Virus record (IMG/VR): IMGVR_UViG_3300032163_000056
Span: 1-37,234 of that record
Length of the DNA stretch: 37,234 bases
Reading direction: 5' to 3' (one strand)
Source: a virus
Shown: positions 5,425 through 17,636 of the stretch, one piece after another
How the letters are laid out: each line of letters begins with the position of its first letter
Numbering within the stretch: position 1 is the stretch's first letter
Notes under the pieces: model-generated
What the model was told of the DNA's origin: nothing
Seen by the model: the letters and a program-made list of their open reading frames with translations, nothing else
Databases searched by the model: none
Program-made: the position numbers and the translations under genes

Positions 5425-5752
5425 ACAACAAACAATGCATGTTGGAATGATGAACTCATACAATTTGATTATGGATAAAGTATCAATAGATACAGTAGTG
5501 CAATCAGGCATAGGAGTATTCGCACACATACCTGATGCAGAACCTGAACTCAATGACATACAAATGATGATTATATACTTTCAAGACCATGACATGTATG
5601 AGATATGTTCAGACCTTGTAAGTTATATAGAGCAGAACTACAACGATAATGGTTGTCTAAAAGGAAGCGAGTGCGACTGCGATTACCCAAACATAAAAGA
5701 ATACGCACGCAGAATGAGGTGCGGAGTATGTAACAAAAGAATTAGAAAGTAA
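5417..5752 (+). CDS. hypothetical protein with C-terminal Cys cluster (111 aa)
   Basis: No family is recognised. The middle is helical (QMMIIYFQDHDMYEICSDLVSYIEQ). The C-terminus has a cysteine cluster (GCLKGSECDCDYP, then CGVCNKR at the very end), possibly a small zinc-binding site. The start overlaps the primase-helicase stop by 8 bp and its last base is the first base of the helicase gene, so it sits in a translationally coupled chain between two replication enzymes. A helicase-loading or other accessory role is possible from position only. Confidence 0.65.
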   Translation: MNKQQTMHVGMMNSYNLIMDKVSIDTVVQSGIGVFAHIPDAEPELNDIQMMIIYFQDHDMYEICSDLVSYIEQNYNDNGCLKGSECDCDYPNIKEYARRMRCGVCNKRIRK

Positions 5753-6531
5753 TGGAAATAATAGAAAGGAGATTAGGATACAGCAATACAGATATGCTGA
5801 AGCACTGCGAAATATTAAAATCAGTTATGTCAAAATCAAAAGAAGCTAAGATAGGCAGAGGTAAAACCGTTCAGACAATTCAGATACCTAAGTACAAAGA
5901 AGATAAGGCTATTGTTGAGAAGATTAATAATAGCCTTTCTCATTATGCAAAGAACGATTTTGACTTTAGAGATTATCAGCGTGACATCATAAAGAGAGGC
6001 GTTGAGATAATACAGAAGCATGGCTTCTTGTACTTAGCCATGGAAGTACGTACAGGCAAGACGCTTACGAGTTTAGGAATCGCAAACGAAATAAACGCAA
6101 AGGTTGTTTTATTTATCACAAAGAAGAAAGCAGTTACATCTATTGCTGCCGACTACAAAGCGCTCAGTCCTGACTGCGATATAACTATCATCAATTACGA
6201 AAGCTTGCACACGGTACAAAACGATAGCAAATGGGATTTAATTATTTTGGATGAAGCTCACTGTTGTTTTTTGGGAAACACCCTAATTGATGGAATAAAA
6301 ATAAAGGACATAAAATTGGGCTATTACCTAAATAGTTTTAACTTTGAAGAAAACAGATATGAAAAAAAGAAAGTTGTAAATGTTTTTAAAAACAAATTAG
6401 ACGAAAACTTAGTTAAAATAAAATGTAATGGAAAAGAAATCGTATGTACCGAAAGTCACGAAATATATACCAAAAGAGGATGGGTTAAAGCAAAAGACAT
6501 CTTACCCTCAGATGATTTGCAGGTGGTGTAA
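5752..6531 (+). CDS. DEAH/SNF2-like helicase N-part fused to split-intein N-half
   Basis: Residues 1-171 are the N-part of an SF2 helicase: YQRDII (75-80), motif I EVRTGKT (98-104), FITKKKAVTSI (121-131) and motif II DEAH (167-170), then C171. From C172 to the stop, 88 residues form an intein N-half: block A CFLGNTLIDG and block B T62-E-S-H65 (intein numbering). Three stops in a row (6529-6537) end the frame. The rest of the helicase continues in the same frame from 7069. A functional helicase therefore needs trans-splicing of this product with that of 7069-8160. Related compact phage helicases read DEAHxxGAFPKP, which places the insertion between two cysteines. Start: ATG overlapping the previous stop. 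Confidence 0.88.
   Translation: MEIIERRLGYSNTDMLKHCEILKSVMSKSKEAKIGRGKTVQTIQIPKYKEDKAIVEKINNSLSHYAKNDFDFRDYQRDIIKRGVEIIQKHGFLYLAMEVRTGKTLTSLGIANEINAKVVLFITKKKAVTSIAADYKALSPDCDITIINYESLHTVQNDSKWDLIILDEAHCCFLGNTLIDGIKIKDIKLGYYLNSFNFEENRYEKKKVVNVFKNKLDENLVKIKCNGKEIVCTESHEIYTKRGWVKAKDILPSDDLQVV
6265..6528 (+). other. split intein N-half (IntN, 88 aa) coding segment
   Basis: It begins with Cys1 (TGT at 6265) right after DEAHC. Seen: block A CFLGNTLIDG, KIKDIKLGYYL (the usual 'I.diklGd.v' region), KIKCNGKEIVCTESH with the block B Thr and His needed for the N-S acyl shift, and a terminal VKAKDILPSDDL segment. The length, 88 residues, equals that of the IntN of gp41-1-type phage split inteins, so it looks complete and not broken. 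The DNA is more A-rich than the flanking helicase, consistent with insertion. Confidence 0.88.
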
Positions 6532-7189
6532 TAATAAACTAAGCCATAATCAGATATATGAATTTTTAAGAGGTAAAACAAAAGGCAACTCTTGCAGCAA
6601 AAGTTGCTCTATGATGATCATGAATTATAAGACTAAAGAACTGTATGATAAAGCAAAAACTTTTAAATGTAAAAATTGTAGTCTGTTATTTAAGAATACA
6701 AAGGAGCATAAAATTTTTACGTGTTCTAAAAAATGCACAAATGAGTTGTCTTCTAAAAGAATGACAAGTAATAACCCAATGTCTAGTAAAGACACAAGAA
6801 TAAAAGTATCTAATACATTAAAAAAAATAAATCATAAACCTAAAATTCAAGGAGGGAATGGAAGGGTGGCTACAATTCATCAATTGTCAATGTATAATGA
6901 ATTATCTAAAATAGATAACTCGTTTGTAATGGAATTAATAGAAAAGACATCTCCATACACAAAAGATTTTAATTCTCCATATCATTATAAAATAGATATA
7001 GCAAGTAGATTTTATAAGATAGCAATAGAAATAGATGGAAGTAGTCATAACTCAAAAAAAATAAAAGAATGCGACAGTCGAAAAGAAAAACTATTAAGTT
7101 TGAAAGGGTGGAAAGTATTGAGATTATCAAACTTTCAGATACAGAAAGAATTAACGAGTTGTGTGAAGATGGTATTGTCTATGATGTAG
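6512..7189 (+). CDS. Vsr-like (EDxHD-type) homing endonuclease, free-standing, overlapping the split intein
   Basis: This frame differs from that of the helicase/intein. I choose the ATG at 6512 because the in-frame stretch from the ATG at 6428 looks like an out-of-frame reading of IntN. The 225-aa protein has two zinc-ribbon-like cysteine pairs (C3xxC6/C28xxxC32 and C53xxC56/C71xxxC75), a NUMOD3-like segment NPMSSKDTRIKVSNTLK, and a C-terminal nuclease core: IEIDGSSH (E-x-D-x3-H), then CDSRKEKLLSLKGWKVLRL. This matches the Vsr/DUF559-type fold of homing endonucleases found in fractured split-intein genes, which cut intein-free alleles to spread the insertion. The start overlaps the IntN end by 20 bp and the end overlaps the IntC ORF by 121 bp. 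Confidence 0.82.
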   Translation: MICRWCNNKLSHNQIYEFLRGKTKGNSCSKSCSMMIMNYKTKELYDKAKTFKCKNCSLLFKNTKEHKIFTCSKKCTNELSSKRMTSNNPMSSKDTRIKVSNTLKKINHKPKIQGGNGRVATIHQLSMYNELSKIDNSFVMELIEKTSPYTKDFNSPYHYKIDIASRFYKIAIEIDGSSHNSKKIKECDSRKEKLLSLKGWKVLRLSNFQIQKELTSCVKMVLSMM

Positions 7190-7239
7190 AAGTAGAAGAT
7201 AATCATAATTACTTAGCAGAAAATATTCTTGTTCATAAT
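7069..7239 (+). other. split intein C-half (IntC) coding segment
   Basis: From the ATG at 7069 the C-half is 57 aa. The conserved core is about 44 aa (from 7108, VESIEIIKLS) and ends H-N just before TGC (Cys+1) at 7240. The core resembles phage IntC pieces of ~37-44 aa. Bases 7069-7189 are also read in another frame as the end of the homing endonuclease. A GTG at 7108 is an alternative start but has no better leader. Confidence 0.85.
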
Positions 7240-8160
7240 TGCGGAGCATTTCCTAAACCTAACAAAAGGTCAACTATGGTTAGAGACCTTATAAGAAAGC
7301 TAAGACCAAAAGTAATACTCCTATCAGGAACACCAACGCCTGAGTCTTACTCTCAGATGTACCATCAGGTATACGCCATACCGGGAAATCCTTTTGCTGA
7401 GTTTCCTAACTTCTATCGATTTTGCGATAAGTATGTTAAGGTTAAGGAAAAGAAAGTGAATGGGCTTATGATACGTAACTACACTGATGCGTATGAGACG
7501 ATACTTGATAAGATGAGACCATATACCATCAACTACACACAGCAAGAGGCCGGGTTTATGACTGAGACTATAGAAGAGGTGCTTGAGGTTGTTATGAAGC
7601 CATCGACTTATAATATAATCAAGAAGCTTAAGCGTGACTTGATTGTGGAAGGAAAGGATGATGTGATACTCGCCGACACGCCTGTTAAACTTATGATGAA
7701 GGTACATCAGTTGTGTTCAGGAACTATAAAGTTTGAGAGCGGTAACTCAATGATACTTGACCTGACTAAGGCTGAGTTTATCAAGGAGCACTTTGATGGA
7801 TTTAAGATTGGAATCTTCTATAAGTTTAAGGAAGAACTCAACGCGCTTCAGCAGGTGTTCGGAGATAATATCACAACAAATCTTGATGAATTTAACGAAA
7901 CAAATAAAATCATAGCTTTACAAATAGTTTCAGGTAGGGAAGGCATATCGCTAAAGGCCGCTGATTATTTGGTATATTACAATATTGATTTTAGTGCGAC
8001 AAGTTATTGGCAGTCAAAGGATAGGATGACAACAAAAGACAGATTGTGTAATAAAGTGTATTGGATATTTAGCAAAGGAGGAATAGAGCACGATATATAT
8101 AAAGCTGTTACAAAAAAGAAAGACTTTACAATTAATCATTTCAAAAAAACACTATGCTAG
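7069..8160 (+). CDS. split-intein C-half fused to helicase C-part
   Basis: The frame is the same as that of 5752-6531 but opens only after a TAA at 7048-7050; the first ATG is at 7069, preceded by an A-rich leader (tcaaaaaaaataaaaga). Residues 1-57 carry the intein C-half, ending in block F VYDVEVEDNHNYLA and block G ILVHN. The C-extein starts at Cys58 (CGAFPKP) and has 306 residues with motif III LLSGTP, a helical region, the motif V-like SGREGISL and motif VI QSKDRMTTKDR. Splicing gives DEAHC-CGAFPKP and a 477-aa SNF2-like helicase, probably for phage replication or recombination. All splicing residues (penultimate His, terminal Asn, +1 Cys) are present, arguing for activity. Confidence 0.87.
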   Translation: MRQSKRKTIKFERVESIEIIKLSDTERINELCEDGIVYDVEVEDNHNYLAENILVHNCGAFPKPNKRSTMVRDLIRKLRPKVILLSGTPTPESYSQMYHQVYAIPGNPFAEFPNFYRFCDKYVKVKEKKVNGLMIRNYTDAYETILDKMRPYTINYTQQEAGFMTETIEEVLEVVMKPSTYNIIKKLKRDLIVEGKDDVILADTPVKLMMKVHQLCSGTIKFESGNSMILDLTKAEFIKEHFDGFKIGIFYKFKEELNALQQVFGDNITTNLDEFNETNKIIALQIVSGREGISLKAADYLVYYNIDFSATSYWQSKDRMTTKDRLCNKVYWIFSKGGIEHDIYKAVTKKKDFTINHFKKTLC

Positions 8161-9617: not shown

Positions 9618-9987
9618 TACGCCTGAAGACCTAAGAAGAGAAAAAAAAGCAATAGAATTGTTTGTAAATATGTTCAGCGGTTCCTACCAAAAGCTTGACC
9701 CCCAAGATGTAGACTATAAAGTCTTTGATAAAGATAACAAGCTGATTGCTTATGCTGAGGTTGTTAGCAGGGCAAGAACAATGGTCACATCATATCCTCT
9801 TCCTATACCGGCAAAGAAACTTGTAAAGCTATTTGATAAAAGAATAACCCCTCTCATTATATGGTGTTGTGATGATGGGATAATATATGCCAAAGCAAAC
9901 GAGCTCAGAGGGGAAATCATTTCCGACTCTGAGCTCATTGTTTATTATAGCAAACAAAAAGAATTTAAGTACATTAGGTTTACTTAG
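9604..9987 (+). CDS. hypothetical protein, possible nuclease-like fold (127 aa)
   Basis: This is the last gene of the rightward operon. The order D53-x-KVFDKDNKLIAYAEVV, a helix YPLPIPAKKLVKLFD, then LIIWCCDDGIIYA resembles the core of PD-(D/E)XK-fold phage proteins, with a beta strand carrying E-V-V. The expected Lys after the acidic pair is not seen, so catalytic activity is doubtful. The start is ATG at 9604 (ATG at 9607 also possible). The last ~30 codons contain a strong hairpin, and the stop overlaps that of the convergent giant gene by 4 bp. Confidence 0.62.
   Translation: MMTFDTPEDLRREKKAIELFVNMFSGSYQKLDPQDVDYKVFDKDNKLIAYAEVVSRARTMVTSYPLPIPAKKLVKLFDKRITPLIIWCCDDGIIYAKANELRGEIISDSELIVYYSKQKEFKYIRFT
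9901..9936. terminator. strong hairpin at operon convergence (possible bidirectional terminator)
   Basis: GAGCTCAGAG (9901-9910) pairs perfectly with CTCTGAGCTC (9927-9936), and inside it GGAAA (9912-9916) pairs with TTTCC (9920-9924) around a TCA loop. The 15-bp near-perfect stem is symmetric, so it forms in either transcript. It lies within the last gene of the rightward operon, 48 bp before the convergent stops. T-runs are weak (TTGTTTATT rightward, GTTTGCTTT leftward), so termination is inferred. Confidence 0.5.
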
Positions 9988-12900
9988 TATCCTCTTAACT
10001 TAATTTTTAGGTAACTTGATTTATAAGTTCCGTCTTTATTCTTTGCTCTTTTTTTACTTTTATGATAATTATACTCTTCATCTTTCATCTGCCTTTTTTC
10101 TTTTCTTAAATCAGATTTGACTTCCTTTTCTGCATCGTCTTCTTCTCCAAATGTTTTATCATATAGGTCAGGATCGTATCTCTTCATATCAGATTTGCTA
10201 TCGTATCCTTGAAGCTGTTCTTCTAACTTTTCTTTCTCTTCCTTTCTTGTTAGTTTCTCTTCTTCATTTTGTTCGGTTCTTTTATAAGGGGCCTCCTTTG
10301 CCTCTCTTATCATCACTCTTATTTCTTTTATTTTAGTAGCATCTGTTTCATCATTTAACATTCTTCTAAGCGCCTCTACCTCTTCTTTCATTTTAGCTTC
10401 TTTCTTTTTAAAAACCTCTGCTTTTTTTTCTGATGATTGACGAACAGAAGCTTCTTTACCACCCTCTTTTGTGCTACTATTTTTCTTTGCTAATCTAAGT
10501 GAGTTTCTAAGAATAGCGTTCATCTCCGCAGGAAAGCCAATAAGAGAACTACCTGTAGATAATAATGCAACATCTCCTAACGCACTAGCGGTTTTATTTG
10601 ACACATATTTTTCTCTTCCGTACTCATCTATATACTTACCGGTTGTAGATATTTCAAACGCCTCAATTATTTGATCGGCTTTATCAATAGCTATACCATA
10701 TAAACCCAAAGACTTTGCTCCATTTTTCTTAATACTCGTCATGAGATGAAACTTATCCTCGTCATCTATGTTCTCTAAATCTTGAAAATAACTCATTACC
10801 TTATCAGTAGCTACAGCTACCGGAACATCCAACATAGGCAATGGAGAAAGTACATCAGTAACCATGCCTGTAGTTTGAGACCTTTTTAATATCTCTTCTC
10901 TTTTCTTTTTATCATCATCTGTCTCATTTATACCCATTGCTTTAACTGCGACATTTGCTAACGTAGAAGCAATAACATATTGCAAATACTTAAACGTAGC
11001 CATTTCTACGGCATAACCTGCAAGTGACCTTCTTGCGGTTGCCCTGTCTTCTTTTGTAGCTTCACCCTTTTTTGAAAAAGTAGTTTTCAAGTCGCTATAC
11101 ATTCTCATTGTCTGATTCATTCTAAAGCTTGCAAATGGCATCACCGTTTTTACCATTACATTTTTCAATGGGTCTTTGGTATTCATAAGTTTACCTTGCA
11201 AGTCGGCATCTGATATGTTCTGTTGTCTATCAACCATATCTTGAGCGTAATCCGCGGCCTCTTCATTTATCTTATCTTTTCCATAATCAAACTTTGATGG
11301 GTCTATACCTTGCTTCTTTAATCCTTTTTCATAATAAGTAATCCAAGAAGCTTTTGCTATCCATACGTCAGGCCTTTCAATAAATATTTTTAACGCTATC
11401 TCATTTGCCTTACCTAAAAAATCAATTATTTTTGATGCATTTGATGTATCAGCAGCCTCAGCTAATTTATTTATGGAATCAACATTAACTCTAGACTTGC
11501 CACCCCTGATAGCAATTGCTCTTTGTGAATTATTAATAAAGTCTACCTTGTCTTTGTTCATAAAATAACGAAAATCAGGCATCCTTCCGGCATTGAGAAG
11601 TGTATTTATAGCAACAGGAATAGTTTGCTTAATAGGCTGAGTTATACCTGCCAATGCAGTAGCTGCACCTGCTGTACCGAGATTGCTAAGTTTTCTAAGA
11701 ACACTTGTCAACTCATCTGTCTGAACAACTTGTCTTTGCCTTGTGGTTCTTATCAAGTCAGGAATAACTCCTTCCTTTCCGCTATTTCTAAATAACAAAT
11801 CACGGTCTTCTTTATTAGGTATTATTTTCTTTATGGCTTTAGAAGAAAAGAACGACTCTATTTGTCTTACTGTTCCTGCAGTATTAATGTCCATCAAAGC
11901 ATCCTGATATGCATTAATCATGTTCCTGTCAAAAGACAAGTCAAAGTATCTATCTTCCATACCATCAGCTTCAGGCCTTGTTGACTTCTCAAGTACGCCT
12001 GCCTTCTTTTTGTATACACCCTTGCCAAATATGTCGTTATTGCTATTATGGAATATTGACTCTCTTGAAGATGGCTCAATGGTTTTCTCGCCTCCTGAAA
12101 GTAAGGAGAACTTAAAGTTAGTGTAGTTCAAATCTCTGTCTAACTTTTTATTGTAGATACTCTCAGACACATCAGCCAATTGGTCGTATATATCAGACCA
12201 CTTATCAATCCACCAATCAACAGCCTCAATGTTTTTATCGTCTGATTTTTTTAATACCTCATCAACTGTATTAGAATCTTTCAAGACTTTGTCGTATGCC
12301 TTCTGATATACATCAGCTAATTTACGCTCCTGCTCTGTTCCATCTCTCAAAAGCTCTATACTCTTTTCTGCTAACTTTTTCTTTCTTACAAACTCAGCCT
12401 TCTGCTGCTCTGGAGTTCCGGGTACGTCTCTTTTCATGGCTGCAATAATGCCTCTCTCGGCTACATTCTCAGCCGTATCAAATGCCTTGCCATTTGCTTT
12501 TTGTTTGTAGAACTCTTTAATGAATGAATCAGTAAGCACATTCATTGTTCTTTGTACGGAAGCCTTTTTGTTTACTAACTCAGTAATGCCCGACAGTCTT
12601 TTAAACTCTTCTGATGCCGCTACACCACGGAACATCTGCTCTGTTAAATTAGGTAGCGTTGATATCTGCTGACCAAATGCTCTACCTGTTTTTTTGCTGA
12701 AGAATAATTTTAGTTTCTTAGCTACTACATTGTTTTCTATTGCCTTTGCTAAATTGTCTTTTGCTTTGTAGTCGGCATAAACGGTCTCCATGCTTGCAAC
12801 TGATCCATTTCGAATGAAATTGTTTAGCGCATCAATAACACCAAGCTTTTCTTTGTCGCTAAGGTCTTTCATGTCCATAGACATAAACCTTTCAACAATC

Positions 12901-15900
12901 TTCTTTCTACCTTCAGACAAATCAATGTCCTCTCCGGTTAATGGGTCCTTGCCTGTGCGAAGTATCTCATCAACCATGGCAGCACTAGAGTCAAATATCT
13001 TGTTTACTCTTTCGGTTATCTTCTTAAGAAGACTATCATCTACCTTCTCGTTGCCTTGAACTTGACCTGTCTTAATTAATTCAAGAACCTCGTCATCACT
13101 AAGGAACGTAGCGTCATCGCCCATTATTCCTCTTGCTGATTTTATTAGCTTGTCTTTATCAATTTTGTACTGCGCATCAAGCATCTTGTCAACATAATCG
13201 CCCATCTTAGCGATGTCAATCATGTCCGCTATTTTTATGGAATTATTCTTGTCCTTTGTAATTTTAGACCCTTCCAATGACTCTCTTATTTTCTTGGCCA
13301 TCTCATTGTACTCGTCAATATTTTCAACATCAGATGGACGTATTTTCAAGAATTGTTTTGCAAACACAGATAGGTCTGCATTTTTCTTTTTATTGCTTGC
13401 AAGTGCTTTTATTGCTGCTCTTACGCCATTGGCATCATTTAATTTATTATCATACTCAGCATCTTCAAATAATTTCTCAGCATACTCAATAACTTTTTCA
13501 ACTGCTGCATCATCCTCTAAATTAACCTTACTTATTTTGTTGAGTAAGGCGTCTACTTTTTTTGTGCTAATAGCTCCTGACTTCTCTATTTGCTTGATGG
13601 CTTCTGCAAATACCTTTCTTCTCTCCATTAAATCCTTGGCAGTCTTTAATCCTTCTTTTACACCTCTGCCAAATGCCTTTATCTGCTCTTTAAGTGCAGT
13701 CTTCTCTGTCATGGTAACAACTTTAGGCGGCTCAACACCAAGTATTGTTTCAGGACTTGGAGACTTCTTTATTCTCTCGCCAAACTTCCTAACTACTTCC
13801 TTTACCATTGCATCTTGCTGAACTTGACTAGCGGTCTTGTATTCATTTGACTCTGTTAATATCTTCAATGCTTCTTCTTTAGAATCAGCAACATCTTTCT
13901 TATACGCTTCAGCTTCTGCCTTAGCCTTATCAAGCGCTTTCTTATTAGCCTCACTCTTATTGATTCTGTACTTATCCTTAGCTTTCTGCAAATCTCTATC
14001 AACATACTCCTTATACTTAGGTATTAGCAGTTCAATATCATCCATTACTCCTGTCTTAGTCTCACGACCTTCAGCCATGGTAACATCGGTAGGCTTGCCA
14101 CTTGTAGTAGCGGTAGCACCGCCTGCACCAACGGTAACTGTAGTGCTTTCGGGTTTAACTTCTACTTTTGTTTCTATTTTTTCAGGTATTTCAATTCCTG
14201 CATCTTTTGCAAATGCTCTGAATTTAGCTTCACTATCTTCGTAATCAAAATACTCATCTGATATTATATAGTTAGCTAATTCTCTAAAAGTATCGTTTCC
14301 GGTTAACTTGTGTGAATTATCTTCACGAGTAAAAAATTTATCAAAATGCTTTCTATATAAATCTCCAAATTTCCTGAAAGACATTTTACGTAATGCATTG
14401 CCTAATTGCTCTCTAATATATTCTCCTTTTAGCTTTCCACTTTTATAATAAATATCCTCTCCTCCTGTCTTAGTCTCCGTTCCTTCAGTCATAGTAACAT
14501 CGCCACGAGTTTTTGGTTCCCTGCTCATTGGAACAGCTTCAGATTCGTTTTCTAAAGCATAGTCAATTAGTTCCTGTTCTGTTTTAAACTCTCCACCAAA
14601 AACATCTTCAAAATCAACCTTAAAACCATTCTTTTTATAAAAGTCAATCAACTGCTCCTTGCTTAATCCTTCTCTACCAAAAGGTTTTGCATCAAGCGTC
14701 AGTTTAACTCCAAGCGCATCAGCAGCATCTATTATATCTTTCATAACAGCCTTACCTACACCTTTACCTTTATCAAGAGATAATATTGATTCAATAGATA
14801 CCTCATTCTTATCTCCTTTATCAAACCTATTAAATTCTAAAGAAGCCTTATCTCCATAAACAAACGACTTGTTGTCAATAGGATTTTTTTGAAGCGGATT
14901 TAAGCTGTTAAGTTTGTTAAGAAACCTATTTAGTATGTTGTCTTTTGTAAATTGTACTTTTTGAGGTTCTTCTTTTTGAGGCTCTTGTTTATTAGTTTCT
15001 TTGTTTCTTTTTATTAACTCATCAATAGCTTCTTGCTTAGACTCTCCAAGTATATCTCCGTAAACCCATTTAAATGAATTAGGCTTTTCTCCTACTCTAC
15101 TAAAGTTTGCATTTTGCCAAGTTTTTTGACTTGGGTCATAGTACATCTTACCTATCTCTTCCCCATTAAGCGTAACCGTGTGCTCATTATCTTCATTCTT
15201 TTTGGTTTTAACTACATCTGTACCACTTGTCTTAGTCTCCGTTCCTTCGCCACCGGTAGTAACCTCAGTAGGACCACCACTTGTAGTAGCGGTAGTACTG
15301 CCGCCGGCTTGAATGGTTGTGCTTTCAGGCTTAGCCTCAGCAGCTTTATGCGCCTCAAGTGCAGCTTTGGCTCGATCAAGTATACTTACACTTGTCTCAT
15401 CGTTTGGATTATCCTTAACATCTTCTTCCCAAAATTTAACCTTATCCTCTAGGTAAGCAATAGGGTTATCAAAGTATCTTTTAGCATCTTCCACATCTTG
15501 CTCATCGTAAGGATTGTCTAACTTTTCTTGTTGGTACGCATCTTCATCAGTGATGGCTTGCTTTTGTTCGGGAGTGAGGTTAGATTCGGCGTCTCCTTCG
15601 CCCACTTTTTGCAATCCCAATTCGGGTTGTTGGCCGAGTAACACGCTTTCATCTGTTGTTTGCTTTTGAATGGCATCTTCTTTTTGTTTATTGGTCATTA
15701 ATTCGGTTAGCTCATTATTCAACTCTCCAAGCCTTGTTTTCTTGGCATCAATAAATGCTTTTATAGACGCTCTTTCTGAAGGTAATTTTGAGTCTGTAAA
15801 CTTCTCTGACAAATCACTAAGCTCAGTATCCAAATTTATTATCTCTGCATTCAGTTCTCTTTTTCTTGTACCAAACTCTGAATTGTCATAAGCATCGGCA

Positions 15901-17636
15901 ATAGCCGATATCTTATCAATTATCATCTTCTTCTCGCTTACGCCAAAACTCTTATTGTTGTTTATTAAGTCAATAAGTGCATCTCTATGCTCAATAATGT
16001 CGTTAACTGTATTATGAGCATCTATTTTATTTTGCAACTTAACAGCCTCATCTCCAAGAGTCTTCTTTTTTTGCATGTCAGGTTCCTTGAGGATAGCTTT
16101 TTTTATAGCATCCCTTGCAGTCATCATAGCCTGTATGTCATCTTGAGTAAGATTTGGGTCATAAGATACATCAAGGTTTGCCTTAGTCTCATTTATAACC
16201 CTTCCAAGCGAGTTAATAGGATTGTCACTTAGTACGCTCTCATAGTAGTGGTTAGCTTCATTTTGGTTCTTATATATTGACCCGGCATGCAGTAAACTAA
16301 ATCCAACGCCAGTGCCTGCCTCCATGATCATCTCCTCAGTCGTCAATGCTCTTCTTTCTGTGGCAGCAACCCTCAATGCCTTAGCTGATGTAAACACACC
16401 TGCATTGGCAAGTGGATTTGATATAGCCGTAGCTATAGCACTATTAAGGCCTGTCTTTGATATAAATTTAGCTATAGCAGGAGAAACCTCACCTGCAGTC
16501 ACACCAAGCACATGCATATACGCACCTTCAGCCGCACCTTCTAATGCCCCATACAATGAATTAACATATACGTTCTCTCCCTCTTCAGTCTCAGCCATGC
16601 CTTTTACAGCACCTTTAACTGCCATGATTTTAGTAAATGGAGAAGTAGCTGATTCTTTTACAAGCTTTGTCGTCTTAGACAAATACTTTTCTGTTATTTT
16701 AGCTGCTGTTTTAGAATACTTCTCAATAACGGGAACTGCTTTTTTAGTTGTGGTTTCTGCCCATTTAGCCGCCGCTGATTCAGCATACAAAGGGTTCTCA
16801 GACGCTGCTGCTAATCCCAAATCAACCGCCATTCCTGCTATGTTCTTAGTAATCTCATAAGGCACCTTCATTACTCCCTCAGGCGCAACTTTCTGTTGAT
16901 AATCCTCTATGTCTTTAACTTGGTCTTTTATGCTTGAAGAAGCATTTGCAAGACCTAATACTAATTTATTTTTTTCTTTTTGAGGTAAGACCGAATTTAT
17001 TATTAAAGAAGATATATTACCAACCCCTGTCAGTATAGCCCTTGGTTCTATAGGAGACATGTCTCCTCCTTTTTTCTTACTTAATTGCTCTAATTGCTTT
17101 TTTACAGCATCGCTCGCAGGTTTATCCGTATCAGGTATATCTTCTCCAAAAAAATTGGTTTCTCTCAATTGGTTTTTAAAAGCATTCAATACGTCATCAG
17201 CAGGTTTTAAGAAACCTTCAGACCATATATTTGAAGCTATACCTCCCACTGCATCAGTTACTTTTTTTGCTCCCATAAGAGTAGCGGCCTCTGCTTTAAG
17301 TGCAGCATTACCAATCTTAGATAGGATACCATCATCCTCAGTCTCTTGCGATGATGATGCCGATGAAGCATCTGCCGAAGACGAACCCGAAGCGACTGAA
17401 TTTTTTTTTTCAACGGAAGGCTGTTGAGTACCGCCTCCAACTTCTCCAATAAATTTATCTATTGGATGTCTTTGCGAAAAAGTATTATCCTTTGTACTTA
17501 TCCATTGATGCATCTTAGTGGCATAATTCGTATCCTGCATTTTACTTGTAAAATCCTGAAATGAATACCTACCTTCATAAGAAGTGTCTTTAGTCTTAAT
17601 CCAATTGTATAAATCTTGTAAATATTTCTCGTCCAT
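9984..17636 (-). CDS. giant multidomain internal virion / polyvalent-type protein (2550 aa)
   Basis: This is the most distal gene of the structural operon. The N-terminus has two copies of a ~30-aa motif (LYNWIKTKDTSYEGR and MHQWISTKDNTFSQR). Small-residue-rich, partly hydrophobic stretches occupy ~260-450. A modular middle follows: three Thr/Gly linkers (~769-804, ~1046-1058, ~1160-1196) separate a GNAT-like domain (~900-1040; GKGVGKAVMKDIIDAA near 955) and two small modules. Long Lys/Glu helices fill ~1200-1850. The C-terminal third has a hydrophobic helix (KYLQYVIASTLANVAV, ~2212) and ends in a highly charged coiled coil. It resembles giant ejected or 'polyvalent' phage proteins carried in the virion. 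Exact function is unknown; I see no RNA polymerase motif. Confidence 0.8.
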   Translation of the reverse strand: MDEKYLQDLYNWIKTKDTSYEGRYSFQDFTSKMQDTNYATKMHQWISTKDNTFSQRHPIDKFIGEVGGGTQQPSVEKKNSVASGSSSADASSASSSQETEDDGILSKIGNAALKAEAATLMGAKKVTDAVGGIASNIWSEGFLKPADDVLNAFKNQLRETNFFGEDIPDTDKPASDAVKKQLEQLSKKKGGDMSPIEPRAILTGVGNISSLIINSVLPQKEKNKLVLGLANASSSIKDQVKDIEDYQQKVAPEGVMKVPYEITKNIAGMAVDLGLAAASENPLYAESAAAKWAETTTKKAVPVIEKYSKTAAKITEKYLSKTTKLVKESATSPFTKIMAVKGAVKGMAETEEGENVYVNSLYGALEGAAEGAYMHVLGVTAGEVSPAIAKFISKTGLNSAIATAISNPLANAGVFTSAKALRVAATERRALTTEEMIMEAGTGVGFSLLHAGSIYKNQNEANHYYESVLSDNPINSLGRVINETKANLDVSYDPNLTQDDIQAMMTARDAIKKAILKEPDMQKKKTLGDEAVKLQNKIDAHNTVNDIIEHRDALIDLINNNKSFGVSEKKMIIDKISAIADAYDNSEFGTRKRELNAEIINLDTELSDLSEKFTDSKLPSERASIKAFIDAKKTRLGELNNELTELMTNKQKEDAIQKQTTDESVLLGQQPELGLQKVGEGDAESNLTPEQKQAITDEDAYQQEKLDNPYDEQDVEDAKRYFDNPIAYLEDKVKFWEEDVKDNPNDETSVSILDRAKAALEAHKAAEAKPESTTIQAGGSTTATTSGGPTEVTTGGEGTETKTSGTDVVKTKKNEDNEHTVTLNGEEIGKMYYDPSQKTWQNANFSRVGEKPNSFKWVYGDILGESKQEAIDELIKRNKETNKQEPQKEEPQKVQFTKDNILNRFLNKLNSLNPLQKNPIDNKSFVYGDKASLEFNRFDKGDKNEVSIESILSLDKGKGVGKAVMKDIIDAADALGVKLTLDAKPFGREGLSKEQLIDFYKKNGFKVDFEDVFGGEFKTEQELIDYALENESEAVPMSREPKTRGDVTMTEGTETKTGGEDIYYKSGKLKGEYIREQLGNALRKMSFRKFGDLYRKHFDKFFTREDNSHKLTGNDTFRELANYIISDEYFDYEDSEAKFRAFAKDAGIEIPEKIETKVEVKPESTTVTVGAGGATATTSGKPTDVTMAEGRETKTGVMDDIELLIPKYKEYVDRDLQKAKDKYRINKSEANKKALDKAKAEAEAYKKDVADSKEEALKILTESNEYKTASQVQQDAMVKEVVRKFGERIKKSPSPETILGVEPPKVVTMTEKTALKEQIKAFGRGVKEGLKTAKDLMERRKVFAEAIKQIEKSGAISTKKVDALLNKISKVNLEDDAAVEKVIEYAEKLFEDAEYDNKLNDANGVRAAIKALASNKKKNADLSVFAKQFLKIRPSDVENIDEYNEMAKKIRESLEGSKITKDKNNSIKIADMIDIAKMGDYVDKMLDAQYKIDKDKLIKSARGIMGDDATFLSDDEVLELIKTGQVQGNEKVDDSLLKKITERVNKIFDSSAAMVDEILRTGKDPLTGEDIDLSEGRKKIVERFMSMDMKDLSDKEKLGVIDALNNFIRNGSVASMETVYADYKAKDNLAKAIENNVVAKKLKLFFSKKTGRAFGQQISTLPNLTEQMFRGVAASEEFKRLSGITELVNKKASVQRTMNVLTDSFIKEFYKQKANGKAFDTAENVAERGIIAAMKRDVPGTPEQQKAEFVRKKKLAEKSIELLRDGTEQERKLADVYQKAYDKVLKDSNTVDEVLKKSDDKNIEAVDWWIDKWSDIYDQLADVSESIYNKKLDRDLNYTNFKFSLLSGGEKTIEPSSRESIFHNSNNDIFGKGVYKKKAGVLEKSTRPEADGMEDRYFDLSFDRNMINAYQDALMDINTAGTVRQIESFFSSKAIKKIIPNKEDRDLLFRNSGKEGVIPDLIRTTRQRQVVQTDELTSVLRKLSNLGTAGAATALAGITQPIKQTIPVAINTLLNAGRMPDFRYFMNKDKVDFINNSQRAIAIRGGKSRVNVDSINKLAEAADTSNASKIIDFLGKANEIALKIFIERPDVWIAKASWITYYEKGLKKQGIDPSKFDYGKDKINEEAADYAQDMVDRQQNISDADLQGKLMNTKDPLKNVMVKTVMPFASFRMNQTMRMYSDLKTTFSKKGEATKEDRATARRSLAGYAVEMATFKYLQYVIASTLANVAVKAMGINETDDDKKKREEILKRSQTTGMVTDVLSPLPMLDVPVAVATDKVMSYFQDLENIDDEDKFHLMTSIKKNGAKSLGLYGIAIDKADQIIEAFEISTTGKYIDEYGREKYVSNKTASALGDVALLSTGSSLIGFPAEMNAILRNSLRLAKKNSSTKEGGKEASVRQSSEKKAEVFKKKEAKMKEEVEALRRMLNDETDATKIKEIRVMIREAKEAPYKRTEQNEEEKLTRKEEKEKLEEQLQGYDSKSDMKRYDPDLYDKTFGEEDDAEKEVKSDLRKEKRQMKDEEYNYHKSKKRAKNKDGTYKSSYLKIKLRGY
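14050..14158 (-). repeat. Thr/Gly linker repeat, copy 3
   Basis: This encodes KPESTTVTVGAGGATATTSG followed by KPTDVTMAEGRETKTG (~residues 1160-1196 of the giant protein). It aligns along its full length with copy 1 and shares with it the exact 18-mer CACTTGTAGTAGCGGTAG. Confidence 0.8.
14464..14501 (-). repeat. Thr/Gly linker repeat, copy 2 (partial)
   Basis: This encodes DVTMTEGTETKTG (~1046-1058), the C-terminal third of the repeat. It follows the GNAT-like domain and shares TGTCTTAGTCTCCGTTCCTTC with copy 1 almost base for base. Confidence 0.7.
15226..15332 (-). repeat. Thr/Gly linker repeat, copy 1
   Basis: This encodes KPESTTIQAGGSTTATTSGG followed by PTEVTTGGEGTETKTSG (~769-804). It is the first of three related linkers separating the modules in the middle of the giant protein. 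Confidence 0.8.

Follow-up and report, generated by a model that had tools for sequence, protein, structure and literature searches.

Fractured genes that combine split inteins with Vsr-like endonucleases, of the gp41-1, NrdJ-1 and IMPDH-1 types, were reportedly described by Dassa et al. in 2009 (NAR 37:2560). A locus built from the same kinds of parts is analyzed here in the IMG/VR virus record IMGVR_UViG_3300032163_000056 (positions 1 to 37,234; this whole stretch of 37,234 nucleotides, nt, is called the window). In the window, an intein interrupts the gene for a phage superfamily 2 (SF2) helicase, and a predicted homing endonuclease gene sits in the +1 frame, overlapping both the N-terminal (IntN) and the C-terminal (IntC) half of the intein. 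This placement of the endonuclease was absent from an earlier sequence-based reading of the window (the original prediction), and the fixed out-of-frame overlap is a larger finding than the split intein itself.

The likeness to fractured genes is clear in several respects. A split intein with the canonical IntN/IntC split breaks a phage DNA-metabolism gene, and an endonuclease gene lies between the halves, which in part of the known cases is likewise of the EDxHD/Vsr class. In the loci of gp41-1 and NrdJ-1 type that we fetched, however, the endonuclease open reading frames (ORFs) between the halves lie outside the splicing blocks and overlap the halves little or not at all, and IntN and IntC take any relative frame; the NrdJ-1 endonuclease overlaps the start of IntC by 31 nt. 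The window does not follow this pattern, with overlaps of at least 20 nt for IntN and 121 nt for IntC, and its family is set apart from the measured loci by a fixed +1 overlap of both halves and by the existence of one-piece relatives. The resemblance to gp41-1 and NrdJ-1 noted in the original prediction thus holds for the split intein with an intervening endonuclease, but these are not the closest relatives, and overlap and register differ. The closest relatives outside the split clade are one-piece inteins with the same out-of-frame gene.

Three further systems offer comparison. The ShiLan-domain insertion hides an HNH endonuclease out of frame in mycobacteriophage methylase genes (Arsenault, Gosselin and Gogarten 2025, PMC11855218), and there too a homing-type endonuclease lies out of frame within an insertion that is open in the frame of the host gene; the ShiLan insertion, however, has no splicing domain and is not an intein, and its endonuclease belongs to the HNH family, whereas the window has intein splicing domains. 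The EDxHD homing endonuclease I-Bth0305I (PDB 3R3P) resembles the window endonuclease in predicted catalytic fold and in the E-D-H-D residue pattern, but is encoded in a group I intron (PMC3943268), whereas the window endonuclease overlaps an intein. Canonical inteins with an in-frame endonuclease share the HINT splicing domain and have their endonuclease in the corresponding position; here, in contrast, the endonuclease is a separate out-of-frame gene, and the in-frame linker of the one-piece relatives is predicted to be disordered. No description of an out-of-frame endonuclease inside an intein was found in the searchable literature, a scope that does not extend to the complete papers of Dassa 2009 and Taylor 2011, and the only analogue found there was the out-of-frame HNH endonuclease in the non-intein ShiLan insertion.

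Results

The helicase is encoded by two ORFs, at positions 5752 to 6531 and 7069 to 8160 of the plus strand, on which all parts of the locus lie, and both are in frame 1; the original prediction likewise had the two in the same frame. The N-extein (5752 to 6264; 171 amino acids, aa) carries Walker A GKT and motif II DEAH, ends in DEAHC, and is assigned from the ORF, Pfam ResIII/DEAD matches and uninterrupted relatives. The C-extein (7240 to 8160; 306 aa) begins with Cys+1, contains the motifs SGTPTP and QSKDR, and is assigned from Helicase_C and relatives. Joined, the exteins give the 477-aa helicase (171 + 306) that had been proposed, a length identical to that of the intein-less proteins of the closest relatives, L002 and L003. 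At the insertion site the window reads LILDEAHC/CGAFPKP where L002 and L003 have LILDEAHGIGAFPKP, or, over the shorter span, DEAHC/CGAFPKP versus DEAHGIGAFPKP. From this sequence at the site and the equal length it follows that splicing would restore the length of the helicase exactly. Nearly all of the 80 viral helicase relatives found are uninterrupted.

Both halves of the intein are recognized by Pfam Intein_splicing (PF14890), in complementary parts of the profile. IntN (6265 to 6528; 88 aa) starts with Cys1, has TESH in block B, ends at a TAA stop (6529 to 6531) and matches profile positions 9 to 93 (1.5e-7), with further support from the alignment and from matches to solved inteins. IntC (7069 to 7239; 57 aa) ends in HN and matches positions 120 to 155 (7.6e-8); its start, MR followed by Q or R, is kept in the split clade except in L101, and the region upstream of it is A-rich, as for other window genes. 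The intein blocks of the original prediction, with Cys1, TESH and VHN/C, are therefore borne out by profile matches to both halves. The HINT match on which it depended was also found: profiles of each half match solved inteins or HINT domains, including DnaX, RecA and NrdJ-1, and AlphaFold2 (AF2) and Foldseek results for the one-piece relative in phage CP-T1 support the same fold. With a stop at 6529, 35 intein-frame stops over the endonuclease and a restart at 7069, splicing in the window must act in trans. By homology, the two halves would associate and ligate the exteins by trans-splicing, and a claim that this reaction is fast would likewise rest on homology.

The endonuclease gene (6512 to 7189) lies in frame 2, the +1 frame, and encodes 225 aa, or 253 aa if the alternative in-frame ATG at 6428 is used. 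Its overlap with IntN spans 6512 to 6531 (20 nt, or 104 nt with the start at 6428), and its overlap with IntC spans 7069 to 7189 (121 nt), where the same DNA encodes the C-terminus of the nuclease domain and the beginning of IntC. The protein contains two Zn-binding motifs, matches Pfam DUF559 (1e-9) and carries ExDGxxH and a subsequent D, all invariant in the endonuclease alignment. Its AF2 model (predicted local distance difference test, pLDDT, 88.6) matches the fold of the I-Bth0305I catalytic domain (probability 1.00, TMt 0.69). On its E-D-H-D residues and predicted fold, the endonuclease is EDxHD/Vsr-like.

The out-of-frame gene proved to be a family trait. The endonuclease search returned phage records, mostly annotated one-piece helicases, among them Vibrio phages CP-T1, 1.088.O, 159E43 and K391, Corynebacterium phage phi673 and Pseudomonas phage MR14; in the 8 phage records inspected, a contiguous intein lies inside the helicase ORF with the endonuclease in its +1 frame. 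Relatives gathered by the endonuclease-only search, by scans of viral and genome contigs and by a profile scan amount to 94 distinct loci, from phages and bacterial contigs. In every one of the 94, IntN and IntC share a frame and the endonuclease is in +1. Splicing residues are widely kept (Cys1 in 92/94, TxxH in 92/94 and HN in 88/94), and most insertions lie at DE^C within motif II of SF2 helicases, 77 of the 94 having DE before Cys1. Terminase large subunit genes of phages serve as alternative host genes of the intein with its out-of-frame endonuclease (L087 and L127).

This fixed register bears on whether the window is an ordinary gp41-1/NrdJ-1-type fractured gene, with a free-standing endonuclease gene between the split-intein halves and overlaps that are incidental. 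Such a reading accounts for the same parts in the same order, and PMC12350094 cites Dassa et al. 2009 for EDxHD/Vsr-like endonucleases reported from fractured genes. The measured gp41-1 and NrdJ-1 ORFs of more than 100 aa, however, hardly enter the halves, and IntC stands in frame 0, 1 or 2 relative to IntN, whereas here the register is the same in 94/94 and the endonuclease ORF extends some 90 nt into the region of IntC. The incidental-overlap reading is largely refuted by the fixed register, and we consider it unlikely.

Both frames are under selection. Openness played no part in the choice of loci, and independent clusters were defined at 70% identity. In 87 of the 94 loci no stop closes the intein frame anywhere over the endonuclease, and the 78 cis clusters contain 0 intein-frame stops, where 8.1 per locus are expected from codon permutation and 11.5 from synonymous redraw. 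Codon bias as the cause of this openness is ruled out by these synonymous tests and by the third frame, which has 15 stops on average. Among 11 further endonuclease loci in which both halves were not detected, 10 are open in the intein frame. Substitutions between close relatives fall mostly at endonuclease codon position 3, and in pairs about 80% identical in nucleotides the endonuclease proteins are 80% identical but the frame-0 proteins only 57 to 59%; it follows that the product being conserved is the endonuclease, with the intein-frame linker just kept open. In the AF2 model of the CP-T1 one-piece intein, the HINT halves mostly exceed a pLDDT of 90 while the linker (94 to 301) is near 40, which predicts a disordered linker. 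Of 81 cis loci, 36 have a motif resembling a Shine-Dalgarno (SD) sequence ahead of the start of the endonuclease, versus 6 to 7% of control ATGs (p ~1e-21).

These properties also speak to a frameshift-fused intein, in which ribosomes would enter the endonuclease by a +1 shift and later return, producing a single long intein that includes the endonuclease as an in-frame domain. The frames do overlap at both ends, so that two shifts could join the three parts, but frame 0 is open throughout in the cis relatives and no shift is needed; moreover, the endonuclease often begins at a start of its own that an SD-like motif precedes, and the ATG of IntC is conserved in the split clade. We regard such a double shift as very unlikely.

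Intein-frame stops are confined to the window, a second assembly of almost the same phage (L043), L098 to L103 and L174, where they occur at about chance density. In the five split clusters stop numbers are about those expected by chance (35 versus 35.4 in the window), and the stop-free constraint is thus gone from this clade. Here stops come directly after IntN, and IntC opens with a conserved ATG in all members but L101; this split layout recurs in six diverged loci (L098, L100, L101, L102, L103 and L174). Taken by themselves, the 35 frame-0 stops between the halves could point to decay or an assembly error, with a broken intein in a helicase that is being lost. The original prediction had argued that the helicase is not decayed, and indeed the helicase motifs, the splicing residues and the endonuclease catalytic residues are all intact, and the same layout is found in the six further diverged loci. 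L043, which shows the same locus with 1 mismatch in 10.9 kb, and the diverged split loci together rule out misassembly or decay, to which we assign almost no probability. An alternative genetic code with read-through is implausible given 35 stops at chance density.

In the endonuclease tree the split clade is monophyletic (SH-aLRT 99) and adjoins the cis loci L105 and L138 (94). A change from cis to split is weakly favored but not proven, since the splicing-domain tree is not reliably rooted. One split locus, L174, comes from a Lacinutrix metagenome-assembled genome, and gene starts in the window are A-rich, without a clear SD motif; a Bacteroidota host would fit both.

Traces of past exchange may be visible in the helicase gene itself. 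Compared with L002, the window helicase is 92 to 98% identical near its 5' end and 82 to 95% in its 3' part. Identity drops over about 240 nt before the insertion (6021 to 6264, boundaries approximate), to 48 to 78% in nucleotides against mostly 82 to 98% elsewhere, and again over about 90 nt after it (7240 to 7326), to about 70 to 73%. Such a mosaic tract fits co-conversion of the flanks. It could be hypothesized, from this tract around the insertion and from the intein-less relatives, that the endonuclease cuts the intein-less allele.

Several loci show other arrangements. In L119 (3358 to 5626), the exception among the 11 further endonuclease loci, a free-standing endonuclease of the same family lies directly upstream of, and overlaps, an intact intein-less SF2 helicase. 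L198 (3652 to 4254) has a 201-aa intein with only a 62-codon endonuclease remnant detected, possibly a degenerating or mini form, and L108 (2854 to 4482) has two IntN matches within a single ORF, so that this helicase may contain tandem inteins. In L127 a LAGLIDADG domain lies close to the beginning of the contig, which suggests that the terminase gene there may hold two inteins. Among the helicase relatives, L056, L066 and L067 have an N-terminal part that stands in a different frame and is separated from the rest by additional DNA, which is possibly a different gene break. Elsewhere in the window, the minus strand at 9984 to 17636 carries a 2550-aa ORF adjoining the virion gene block.

Discussion

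Taken as a whole, the explanation that we hold to be highly probable is that a mobile intein occupies motif II of a phage SF2 helicase and that its endonuclease is not an in-frame intein domain but a separate +1-frame gene, stretching from the last part of IntN across the linker into the beginning of IntC. In most relatives the stop-free intein frame would yield one polypeptide, in which the HINT halves fold around the disordered linker and splice in cis, and the endonuclease would be translated from its own start. In the window clade, stops after IntN and the start codon of IntC would produce two polypeptides that trans-splice into the helicase of 477 aa. Helicase genes without the intein would be cleaved by the endonuclease at motif II or close to it, and recombination would then spread the element. 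The analysis shows the anatomy of the locus, its frames, its conservation, the selection acting on both frames and the predicted folds; splicing, nuclease activity and homing are what we infer.

Several observations weigh against this explanation. Homology is the basis for both splicing and cleavage, and the fold matches of the endonuclease have weak Foldseek E-values (0.01) despite the probability of 1.00. More than half of the cis loci have no SD-like motif at the rule-chosen endonuclease start, and IntC of L101, having no conserved start, would need a downstream ATG. Long branches make the gp41-1/NrdJ-1 outgroup unsuitable for rooting the splicing-domain tree, so that the split state could be ancestral, and the mosaic tract is silent on which helicase allele was replaced.

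More broadly, the family probably represents an undescribed and widespread class of dual-frame inteins, present in phages and in bacterial contigs from many phyla, with a +1 endonuclease, a stop-free and disordered in-frame linker, and an SD motif that often lies within intein codons. Within it, the window clade would mark where release of the stop-free constraint led to a natural split, or where the reverse took place, linking cis inteins with fractured genes. An isolate bacterial genome, that of Ktedonobacter racemifer DSM 44963 (L176), carries a one-piece dual-frame intein and may be a test case beyond phage collections.

How naturally split inteins arose is still an open question, and one family with both states in the same overlap register makes the step between cis- and trans-splicing directly open to study. 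The split clade supplies new candidate IntN/IntC pairs for protein ligation, and a nuclease gene lies unannotated within annotated one-piece phage helicases, including those of CP-T1, phi673, MR14 and many Vibrio phages. The family as a whole shows one way in which an intein and its endonuclease can evolve as separate proteins on common DNA.
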